Shown here: positions 4,013 through 6,710 of the stretch, in pieces
How the letters are laid out: the number at the start of each line of letters is the position of its first letter
Position numbering within the stretch: the stretch's first letter is position 1
Origin: Chloroflexota bacterium
Lineage (GTDB): Bacteria > Chloroflexota > Limnocylindria > P2-11E
Direction of reading: 5' to 3'
Assembly (NCBI GenBank): GCA_005887995.1
Contig: VBJD01000032.1
Coordinates: forward strand, 1 to 38,629
DNA: 38,629 bases
Notes under the pieces: model-generated
Databases searched by the model: none
Told to the model about the DNA's origin: nothing
Seen by the model: the letters and a program-made list of their open reading frames with translations, nothing else
Made by a program: the position numbers and the translations under genes

Positions 4013-4330
4013 ATGGAGTGGACCGACGAGGCGGGCACGCTGCTCGACGCGCTCGCGCGCATGGTGCCCGAAACGCTGCGCGAGCTCGCGAAACTGTCCG
4101 CGAAGGACGAGGCTGAGTCCGTCGCGTCTGCATCCGGGGCCGAGGAGGTCGACGTCGACGACGTGATGCGCGCCTGGATCCGTACGACGCCGCCCGAGCA
4201 GCGCAACGGGCTCGTCGCCGTCATCGAGAGCCTCGGCCTCGAGCCGGAGCGCTACGCCGAGGACCTCGAGAGCGCCCAGGGCTGGGACGAGCAACAGGAG
4301 TACGAGGAGCCTCCGGACTCCGAGCGCTAG
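4013..4330 (+). CDS. Small PCP_red-like helical domain protein
   Basis: A 105-residue acidic helical protein. Residues 1-60 follow the pattern of the PCP_red domain (first described at the C-terminus of protochlorophyllide reductase BchB/ChlB and also found as stand-alone proteins): a leading Trp, VPETLRELAKLSAKDEAES, a Glu/Ala helix, then VDVDDVMRAW. The second half (PEQRNGLVAVIESLGLEPERYAEDL) is not recognised. No bch/chl genes are visible, so a photosynthetic role is not implied. It begins 10 bp after the acyl-CoA dehydrogenase stop and is probably co-transcribed. Its stop overlaps that of the convergent 38-residue ORF. Family call tentative. Confidence 0.6.
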   Translation: MEWTDEAGTLLDALARMVPETLRELAKLSAKDEAESVASASGAEEVDVDDVMRAWIRTTPPEQRNGLVAVIESLGLEPERYAEDLESAQGWDEQQEYEEPPDSER

Positions 4331-4443
4331 TCGGCGAAGCCCTCTTCGCGCCGGAGGAGCTCCGCTTGTTCGGCGATCCAGGCTGCTTCGCGGATCTCCT
4401 CGAGCTCGGTCGTCTCAGTGGTCTCCTCGGTGTCGATATCCAT
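4327..4443 (-). CDS. 38-residue acidic protein downstream of isocitrate-lyase-family gene
   Basis: A short ORF beginning MDIDTEETTETTELEEIR and ending EGFAD (38 residues). It is strongly acidic and predicted helical. Support for translation: an AGGAG Shine-Dalgarno about 6 nt before the ATG at 4443, which itself overlaps the stop codon of the lyase gene 9 bp away. Its N-terminal half resembles that of the small ORF in front of the lyase (both MD-start, Thr/Glu-rich, then TELEE or the near-identical ELEE stretch and a later EQ). Function unknown; a partner or stability factor of the lyase is conceivable. No domain is recognised. Confidence 0.55.
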   Translation of the reverse strand: MDIDTEETTETTELEEIREAAWIAEQAELLRREEGFAD

Positions 4444-4452
4444 CGCCTTCTC

Positions 4453-5577
4453 CTAGACGGCCTTCTCGCCGAGCTTCTCGTCGAACTGCGTCCCGAGCCG
4501 CGACGCGCCCATCACTGAGCCCATCGTCTGGTGGTAGGGGACGCCGGTGAAGAGGTGGTGGCTGCGTGTCGGGATGTCGTCGCCGACCTGCCACTCCTTC
4601 CGCTGCAGGGCGATGTACGCGTGCTGCTGTTCCTCGCTGAGACCCTGGAGGAGCTTCGCGAAGCCGTAGCCGAACGCGTGCTGCGCCGCGAGGGTGATGA
4701 AGAGGAACTTGTAGCCGAGCTCGCCGAGCTCGCCGAACGTGATCGGGTCGGGATCGTTGAACCACTTGAACGACGACGACCAGTTGAACGCGAACTTCGC
4801 GTCCGGGAAGCGACGGCGCACTTCGTTCGCGAACTGCTCCGTCGGCTTGCGATCGCTCGTCGGGAACTCGCACCACACCATGTCCGGGACGCCGCTGTCG
4901 AGATAGCGCAGCGCGCGGTCGATCGCGAGATCCATCCCACGTAAGCTGTCCGGCGCGTCGACCGCGGACACGGCGTCGGTGCGCGCGATGATGACAAAGT
5001 CCTTGCGCCCCAGGTCGTCGGCGACCGCGCGCATCATGCGCAGCTTGCCGACCATCTCGTCGGCGCTGATGAGCGCCTTGCCGGCGATGTGCCCGCAGCG
5101 CTTCGGCAGGACCTGGTCCTCGATGTGCGCCGCGGCCACACCCGCGTTCACGTAGAGATCGGCGGTCCGCTGGACGTTGAACAGGTTGCCGTAGCCGCCG
5201 TCCATGTCGACGACGACCGGCGGGATCTCGAGGTGCTTGGGCGCGACGCCCTTCTCCGGATCGCCGAGGGCCATCGTGAGCTGGAACTTGCGCAGCGCGG
5301 CGACGGTGCGCCGCGCGCCATCGGCGATCTCCGGTCCGGTGTACAGATCCATGTCGGTCGTGCCGAGGTGGCCGATCGCGAAGCTGTAACCGCTGAAGTA
5401 GACGGCCCCAAAGCCGTAGTACATGCACAGCTCCGCGCCGTGCGGGTCGTAGACGCCGGGCCCGAACACGAACGGCTCCGTGTCGATGAGCCGGCGCAGC
5501 CGCGTCGCGGGGTCCTCCCACCGCGACGCGGGCACCTTGAATCCTTCAGGGAGGAGGGGTGTCTCGACGAGCCTCAT
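4453..5577 (-). CDS. Isocitrate lyase / methylisocitrate lyase family protein
   Basis: A 374-residue enzyme of the ICL/PEP-mutase superfamily, which cleaves isocitrate to glyoxylate and succinate or 2-methylisocitrate to pyruvate and succinate. Visible motifs: FSGYSFAIGHLGTTDMDLYT (residues 61-80), the Mg-binding VVVDMDGGYGN (121-131), HIEDQ, and the catalytic KRCGH at 159-163. The C-terminal FNWSSSFKWFND resembles isocitrate lyases, while KRCGH rather than KKCGH recalls methylisocitrate lyases. The length is between PrpB (about 300) and AceA (about 430). The start ATG 5577 overlaps the stop of a 49-residue ORF (ATGA). The divergent LysR gene is a likely regulator. No malate synthase or prpC/D is in the window, so the substrate stays open. 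Confidence 0.8.
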   Translation of the reverse strand: MRLVETPLLPEGFKVPASRWEDPATRLRRLIDTEPFVFGPGVYDPHGAELCMYYGFGAVYFSGYSFAIGHLGTTDMDLYTGPEIADGARRTVAALRKFQLTMALGDPEKGVAPKHLEIPPVVVDMDGGYGNLFNVQRTADLYVNAGVAAAHIEDQVLPKRCGHIAGKALISADEMVGKLRMMRAVADDLGRKDFVIIARTDAVSAVDAPDSLRGMDLAIDRALRYLDSGVPDMVWCEFPTSDRKPTEQFANEVRRRFPDAKFAFNWSSSFKWFNDPDPITFGELGELGYKFLFITLAAQHAFGYGFAKLLQGLSEEQQHAYIALQRKEWQVGDDIPTRSHHLFTGVPYHQTMGSVMGASRLGTQFDEKLGEKAV

Positions 5578-5723
5578 GACTCGTGCGCCACCTGGCAGCT
5601 CGGGTCGGGGCACTCGCACTCCATCTGCATCTGCAAGATCTTCGTTTGCTCCTTCTGGAGCTCGATGCGCTCTTCTAGCTCTGTCACGTTCTCGGCCTCC
5701 GTGGTCGCTCTCTGCGTATCCAT
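5574..5723 (-). CDS. 49-residue coiled-coil/Cys protein coupled to the lyase gene
   Basis: A short ORF starting MDTQRATTEAENVTELEERI. A heptad-like helix (ELEERIELQKEQTKILQMQM) is followed by a Cys-rich tail CECPDPSCQVAHES, in which three Cys and a His could bind metal or be redox active. Its TGA overlaps the ATG of the lyase, a classic coupling arrangement. ATG 5723 is chosen; an in-frame ATG at 5762 would add 13 residues and run over the first inverted repeat. No Shine-Dalgarno is evident. The N-terminal half resembles the 38-residue protein on the other side of the lyase. No family recognised. Confidence 0.55.
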   Translation of the reverse strand: MDTQRATTEAENVTELEERIELQKEQTKILQMQMECECPDPSCQVAHES

Positions 5724-5735
5724 GGGCGAGCGATG

Positions 5736-5752
5736 TGGCACTCTCTGTGCCA
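5736..5752. repeat. Perfect inverted repeat TGGCAC-N5-GTGCCA
   Basis: Six-base arms at 5736-5741 and 5747-5752 separated by TCTCT, directly upstream of the 49-residue ORF and the lyase. A plausible regulator-binding site or 5' hairpin. Confidence 0.5.
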
Positions 5753-5764
5753 GGGTGCCCATAA

Positions 5765-5779
5765 GACAAATCGTTTGTC
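5765..5779. promoter_or_regulatory. Perfect inverted repeat GACAAA-TCG-TTTGTC in the lysR/lyase intergenic region
   Basis: Six-base arms at 5765-5770 and 5774-5779. It is AT-rich in GC-rich surroundings and placed between divergent genes, where LysR-type regulators normally bind; it lies close to the lysR -10-like element. Likely operator for the adjacent regulator; not proven. Confidence 0.5.
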
Positions 5780-5807: not shown

Positions 5808-6710
5808 ATGCCCCAAGACCCGATGCTGTTCGCCCATCTCGAGAGCTTCCTCGAGGTGGCGCGACGTGGGAACGTCAGCCGTGCGGCGGAAGCGCTCTTT
5901 CTCACGCAGCCCGCGATCACCGCGAGGCTTAAGTCCTTGGAGAGCGACCTGGGGGTCGAGCTCTTCGTGCGCACCGGCCGCGGGATGAAGCTGAGCGACG
6001 CCGGCCGCGCCTTCCTCCCCTACGCCGAGCGGACGATAGCGACCGTCGACGAGGGCCGCCAGCTCGTCACGAACCTGCGGCAGGGCAACGTCGGCGCGCT
6101 GCTCATCGCCGCCGCACCCGCGGTGAGCACGTACGTGCTGCCGCGGATACTGCGCGCGTTCCGCGCGACGTATCCGAACGTCCGCCTCGGTGTACGCACG
6201 GGCCACACCGAGGAGGTCCTCGAGATGGTCCTTCGCGCCGAGGCACACATCGGCATCGGTCGGCCGATCCGCCATCCCGACGTCGAGCTCATACCGCTGT
6301 TCGAGGACGAGATGCTCCTCGTCGTCGCGGCGCGCCACCCCTTCGCCTCGCGCGGCAAGGTGTCGATGGCCGAGCTCGCCGAGGAGCGGCTCATCCTCTT
6401 CGACCGCACCTCGAGTTATCACGAGCTCACATCGAGCCTCTTCCGCCAGGCGGGCGTCATTCCCGCATCGACGCTCGAGCTCGACAATGTCGAGGCCGCG
6501 AAGAAGATGGTCCAGCAGGGGCTCGGCGTCGCGCTGCTCCCGCGCATGGCGCTGTCATCCGAGCTGAAGGCGCGCTCGCTCCGTCCGGTGAAGCTCGTCG
6601 GCGCGCCGACAGTGCGTCGCCCGATCGTCGCGCTACGCCGGAAGGATGCGGGCGAACCGATCGGTCCGGTCGCGGGATTCCTCGAGACGCTGCACGAGGT
6701 GCTCGGCTAG
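5808..6710 (+). CDS. LysR-family transcriptional regulator
   Basis: A 300-residue LTTR. The winged-helix DNA-binding domain covers residues 1-65: HLESFLEVARRGNVSRAAEA, LFLTQPAITARLKSLE, LGVELFVRTGRGMKLSDAG. The periplasmic-binding-like effector domain follows from about 90 (LLIAAAPAVSTYVLPRILRAF through GLGVALLPRMAL). It is complete in length and motifs. Its gene diverges from the lyase operon across two inverted repeats, so control of glyoxylate or propionate flux is the natural inference. The effector is unknown. Start at ATG 5808; ATG 5823 (MLFAHLESF) is nearly as good because homology begins there. The stop is 4 bp from the convergent stop at 6715. Confidence 0.92.
   Translation: MPQDPMLFAHLESFLEVARRGNVSRAAEALFLTQPAITARLKSLESDLGVELFVRTGRGMKLSDAGRAFLPYAERTIATVDEGRQLVTNLRQGNVGALLIAAAPAVSTYVLPRILRAFRATYPNVRLGVRTGHTEEVLEMVLRAEAHIGIGRPIRHPDVELIPLFEDEMLLVVAARHPFASRGKVSMAELAEERLILFDRTSSYHELTSSLFRQAGVIPASTLELDNVEAAKKMVQQGLGVALLPRMALSSELKARSLRPVKLVGAPTVRRPIVALRRKDAGEPIGPVAGFLETLHEVLG

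Follow-up and report, generated by a model that had tools for sequence, protein, structure and literature searches.

The choice between oxidizing acetyl units and using them for biomass is made at the glyoxylate shunt, and isocitrate dehydrogenase is the enzyme that competes for isocitrate. The best-known bacterial control of the shunt is AceK, which acts on isocitrate dehydrogenase in enterobacteria; to our knowledge, this control does not cover most bacteria. Among small cysteine- and histidine-containing sites, the CDGSH iron-sulfur motif of the mitoNEET family holds a [2Fe-2S] cluster with the ligand order C-x-C ... C-x3-H and a loop of 8 residues. More generally, a small metal site is typically built from three invariant Cys and a single His spaced over roughly twelve residues, along with an Asp that hardly varies. 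Short cysteine-rich genes have been described in mycobacteria as polycysteine-encoding leaderless short ORFs (Canestrari et al, 2020, doi 10.1111/mmi.14498). The literature searched contained nothing on a microprotein associated with isocitrate lyase (ICL). The Cys microprotein described here gave no family match in Pfam or NCBIfam, and its family is tied to glyoxylate-shunt genes.

The window, that is, the whole stretch of DNA that was analysed, comprises 38,629 nucleotides of a Chloroflexota contig (VBJD01000032.1). On its minus strand lies a gene (4453..5577) for a 374-aa enzyme of the isocitrate lyase family (PF00463, E=4.8e-31). As the preliminary description had seen in the sequence, two small ORFs clasp this gene: the TGA of the upstream one (stop at 5574), which ends in the Cys cluster CECPDPSCQ, overlaps the lyase ATG as ATGA, and the downstream one, which has an AGGAG site, starts 9 nt beyond the stop of the lyase. 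The lyase score of 108.3 bits passes the curated Pfam threshold for ICL (cut-off 26), and isocitrate lyases are its best solved relatives. The catalytic K[KR]CGH motif reads KRCGH and aligns to KKCGH of 3i4e. This motif and an ICL-like C-terminal half are shared with the PF00463 isocitrate lyases, including those of the mycobacterial ICL2-type. In contrast to the isocitrate lyase equivalogs, the enzyme has a compact 374-aa form, and it stays below the NCBIfam equivalog cut-offs for isocitrate and methylisocitrate lyase (PRK15063.1, 151 against 562 bits; TIGR01346, 141 against 276 bits). Since its scores fall below these cut-offs, it is best ranked as a compact, divergent member of the ICL family, with isocitrate as the presumed substrate. 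A malate synthase is encoded on another contig of the same genome (G000:C98), so a glyoxylate shunt is possible in this organism. A divergent LysR-type regulator (5808..6710, plus strand; PF00126, PF03466) flanks the locus, and a LysR neighbour was present at 69 of 80 orthologous lyase loci. Convergent to the lyase operon, a 105-aa protein is encoded at 4013-4330 on the plus strand, with a match to DUF2621 (PF11084, E=5e-8) and a sub-threshold similarity to PCP_red; its gene adjoins an acyl-CoA dehydrogenase gene.

The upstream ORF can be read in two ways. The longer reading, given in the preliminary description, starts at an ATG and yields 49 aa (5574..5723, minus strand), and its first 12 residues have no orthologue support. 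Orthologues from the same genus open with MTE[IL][ED]ER (MTEIEER or MTELDER) shortly 3' of a GGAGG or GGGAG site, and their start aligns to the GTG at 5687 in the window, which has a GGAGG ribosome-binding site (5696..5700, minus strand) 8 nt upstream. Because the same-genus starts align in this way, the window microprotein probably has 37 aa and the sequence MTELEERIELQKEQTKILQMQMECECPDPSCQVAHES (5574..5687, minus strand), and the ATG at 5723 is probably not its start. The earlier characterization of this ORF as starting with MD and rich in Thr and Glu is undermined by the same correction, as these residues are not conserved and perhaps not translated. Its helical character was upheld in part: AlphaFold placed a helix at residues 3-35 of the 49-aa model (mean pLDDT 72), and the N-terminus concerned is not conserved in the family. 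The tail of the model had low confidence, which is compatible with a tail that would become ordered by a metal or a partner. This tail, CECPDPSCQVAH (5583..5618, minus strand), corresponds to the conserved three-Cys/one-His part of the family with the motif CxCP[DE]xCxxDH. The complete C-terminus of the window copy, ECECPDPSCQVAHES, is a diverged version of the longer family motif ECxCP[DE]xCxxDHxN[ED]-stop, in which one residue is inserted and Ala replaces Asp.

Among 80 lyase orthologues taken from one-per-species genomes, a short motif ORF ended near the lyase start at 60 loci (59 by the first search, plus L056), against a background of 0 matches of the motif regex in 1.19 Mb of flanking strand-sequence. 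The curated alignments show no exception at the three Cys and the His and very few at the Asp, and the Pro and Asn of the tail are also strongly conserved. Family members are about 22-65 aa long. Their N-termini vary in length and sequence; what is conserved lies in the C-terminus only, and its distance from the stop codon hardly changes. For the two principal tail types, which cover 61 of the 68 distinct sequences, pN/pS was 0.43 in the last 17-18 codons as compared with 1.2-1.7 in shifted frames, and synonymous exchange was free at conserved Pro, Asp and Glu codons. In family f19 the values were 0.01 for the C-terminal 14 codons and 0.53 for the N-terminal 26. A comparison of the window with its nearest relative gave pN/pS 0.71 over all 37 codons, which taken alone is a weak signal. 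An Rfam search for an RNA element returned chance-level eukaryotic matches only, all below gathering scores. Judged by this comparative evidence, the upstream ORF is a genuine gene family under protein-level selection, and we infer that it is translated as a protein.

High GC content does produce many spurious ORFs in the window, and chance ORFs in GC-rich DNA were considered for both small genes. The probability of this explanation is negligible, as it is already contradicted by the recurrence of the motif over a zero background, by the in-frame selection and by the presence of the motif at several ICL types. Since each of the two ORFs is conserved among relatives, both are more than chance. 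The expectation that small proteins coupled to the lyase, one of them with a Cys cluster, had been overlooked is thus strongly supported by comparative genomics. Conservation with a synonymous bias, named beforehand as the test, was present in both families, with no disruption of the kind that had been feared. The variable N-terminus ahead of a conserved C-terminal core would also suit the leader and core of a ribosomally made, modified peptide precursor. We consider such a precursor very improbable, since no conserved maturation enzyme lies nearby and LysR is the only broadly common neighbour of the microprotein loci besides ICL.

ORFs adjoining the short lyase supplied the motif profile, which was afterwards searched against whole genomes, not only lyase neighbourhoods; matches were assigned to ICL genes by coordinates, using ICL searches of the same genomes. 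Across 151 related genomes this yielded 39 strong matches (E<1e-3), and the motif ORF occurred in 38 of the 40 genomes with a short or long ICL and in 1 of the 111 others. It was present in one copy per genome and nearly always beside ICL. The short lyase, carried by 27 genomes, adjoins 26 of the strong matches, and 12 further ones lie just upstream of a long, ICL2-type lyase of ~770 aa (13 genomes), which has ~30% identity to the short enzyme. The remaining strong match came from an incomplete genome in which no ICL was detected (G010). Near a contig end of that genome lies a 22-aa ORF, MKTHPTTTCTCPDLTCNVDHGN (L196), perhaps a minimal form of the family. Among 400 genomes of the phylum, 47 motif matches were found at E<=0.01, and 211 of the 400 carry an ICL-family gene, so that most Chloroflexota with ICL do not have the motif ORF. 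Several single MAG loci depart from the usual arrangement. In G265 the motif ORF stands at a third ICL type, and in G216 the order is motif ORF, malate synthase, ICL, with a divergent LysR gene. In G342 it is ICL, motif ORF, another gene, LysR; here the ATG of the motif ORF lies 9 nt after the ICL stop and has its own AGGAGG (profile E=0.0025). G300 carries the motif and ICL on different contigs. A diverged motif ORF, APCGCPENCLRDHQLD, was also observed directly 3' of a gene that reads as isocitrate dehydrogenase (L198 in G079, likewise a single MAG locus; profile E=0.0016).

Outside this distribution, the short-lyase orthologues of Thermomicrobium relatives, Acidobacteriota and a deltaproteobacterial MAG (L042, L047, L048, L055, L095 and L098) had the motif ORF neither adjacent nor elsewhere in the genome. 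Searches run with no positive control found no motif ORF in 99 genomes of the phylum of an Acidobacteriales MAG or in 146 of that of a Deltaproteobacteria MAG, nor, again with no positive control, in the ICL neighbourhood of eight plasmids (Actinomycetota, Pseudomonadota and Bacteroidota). Together with the absence from most ICL-bearing Chloroflexota, these results indicate that the family is lineage-restricted and not needed for ICL as such, which is consistent with a regulatory or protective role. Because the ORF accompanies several very different lyase types and once malate synthase, the pattern points to an association with the pathway rather than with one enzyme. The same pattern bears on whether the microprotein could belong to the lyase itself, as a dedicated subunit of its structure or a factor in its assembly, with metal ligands supplied to the enzyme by the tail. 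Tight coupling (ATGA in the window), the single copy per genome and the near-constant position beside ICL all speak for such a subunit. It nevertheless appears distinctly improbable, given that the three ICL types accompanied by the ORF differ greatly in sequence and size, that in G216 the ORF directly precedes malate synthase, and that the orthologous short lyases of Thermomicrobium and Acidobacteriota occur without it genome-wide. Of the roles first proposed, the redox or metal function thus stays plausible in view of the Cys cluster and the conserved Asp-His, and that of a lyase subunit gives way to a link with the pathway.

The layout of expression differs between groups. In the Dormibacteria-like and f19 groups a Shine-Dalgarno site is absent ahead of the motif ORF, and a promoter-like TTGGAC-N17-GATAG(T) lies about 9-10 nt before the ATG; from this spacing, the motif ORFs of both groups are probably leaderless first cistrons. 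At the Dormibacteria-type loci (L062-L092) the element suggests leaderless mRNAs in uncultivated bacteria. In the window's genus, GGAGG or GGGAG sites precede the motif ORF. Between the LysR gene and the microprotein gene, the window contains an inverted repeat, ACAAA-CGA-TTTGT (5766..5778), and a dyad, GGCAC-AGAGA-GTGCC (GGCAC-N5-GTGCC; 5737..5751), each a possible operator. Both recur upstream of the microprotein in relatives from the window's family (f1), where the inverted repeat takes the similar form ACAAACGATTTG.

This layout brings in the main rival explanation, a cis-acting leader peptide of the kind reported in mycobacteria, on whose Cys-rich tail the ribosome would slow when cysteine, or another signal, is limiting, thereby changing ICL expression. 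The usual position as first cistron and the probably leaderless start in two groups fit such a leader and count against a trans-acting product; a conserved part limited to the C-terminus, with little change in its spacing to the stop, agrees with a leader as well. The reported mycobacterial ORFs share with the present family a short Cys-rich ORF that is first in its operon and, in some of our groups, probably leaderless. There are differences too: here Pro, Asp, His and Asn are conserved beside Cys, the downstream gene is ICL, and the ORF can follow ICL with a ribosome site of its own. Sensing of Cys codons needs none of these other residues, and conservation restricted to Cys codons is not what the alignments contain, because Pro, Asp, His and Asn are equally conserved while their synonymous codons change freely. 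Moreover, the distance from the motif-ORF stop to the lyase start ranges from overlap to +233 nt and is often too short to hold a terminator, ICL does not belong to the sulfur genes, and a leader would hardly be expected behind ICL with its own ribosome site (G342) or on a contig without ICL (G300). On balance we regard the leader peptide as unlikely.

The explanation we favour, with modest confidence, is that the ORF encodes a trans-acting, metal- or redox-responsive microprotein that serves as partner or regulator of the glyoxylate shunt in soil Chloroflexota. Because G342 has its own ribosome site behind ICL and G300 has the motif on a contig without ICL, these two loci point away from a purely cis-acting leader and favour action in trans; both arguments come from single MAG loci, and the G342 profile match has E=0.0025. 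In the proposed mechanism, the small protein would be co-produced with the products of glyoxylate-shunt genes, in most cases from a locus that adjoins a LysR-type regulator gene. Its three C-terminal Cys and one His would bind one metal ion, zinc being the simplest guess, and it would then work in trans on isocitrate lyase, possibly also on malate synthase, as a partner or regulator that responds to metal or redox state. From the invariance of the three Cys and the His, the tail is most likely a metal site, and we read the variation of the Cys2-Cys3 loop between 3 and 5 residues, with Cys and His staying fixed, as the behaviour of such a site. Its trans mode of action and its target are also inferred. 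The microprotein shares the ligand order C-x-C ... C-x3-H with CDGSH proteins, but its loop has 3-5 residues in place of 8 and it has no Pfam match. Membership in the CDGSH family was rejected (hhalign probability 0.5%, over 8 columns). The wider proposal, that an undescribed family of metal-binding microproteins in Chloroflexota, found with several ICL types and malate synthase, steers the isocitrate branch point in trans through the shunt enzymes or their regulator, is put forward tentatively, as somewhat short of probable. If true, a conserved Cys/His microprotein tied to very different ICL types would be a new control point of the shunt, possibly sensing metal or redox state, in mostly uncultivated soil bacteria. 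The tail motif also provides a sharp, testable marker for genes that are too short for standard annotation.

The downstream ORF (4327..4443, minus strand) encodes 38 aa with the core AAWIAEQAELLRREEGFAD, and its family has the core WxAEQxxLxxLE[DE]G. In 11 genomes of two genera this core, as W[IL][AT]EQxxLxxLE[DE]G, is encoded directly 3' of ICL, with several members starting in an ATGA overlap with the lyase stop. The pooled core pN/pS was 0.34, and a search of Pfam and NCBIfam gave a chance-level match to Latarcin only (E=0.05). By these measures the downstream ORF is a separate, narrower, lineage-specific small-protein family under protein-level selection; a role of its product as an acidic, translationally coupled small partner is no more than a guess. 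The two small ORFs had been described as mutually similar, and they turned out to be unrelated: BLASTP found nothing at E<=100, and hhalign of the family profiles gave a probability of 0.1%. The TELEE stretch, taken as a sign of kinship, has a shuffle p of 0.034; in relatives the two families do not both retain it, and the resemblance is coincidental. The downstream family also occurs at two further places. At one of them (L248, G006:C5), away from ICL, the WxAEQ small protein adjoins a gene whose reading suggests a VOC/glyoxalase-family protein.
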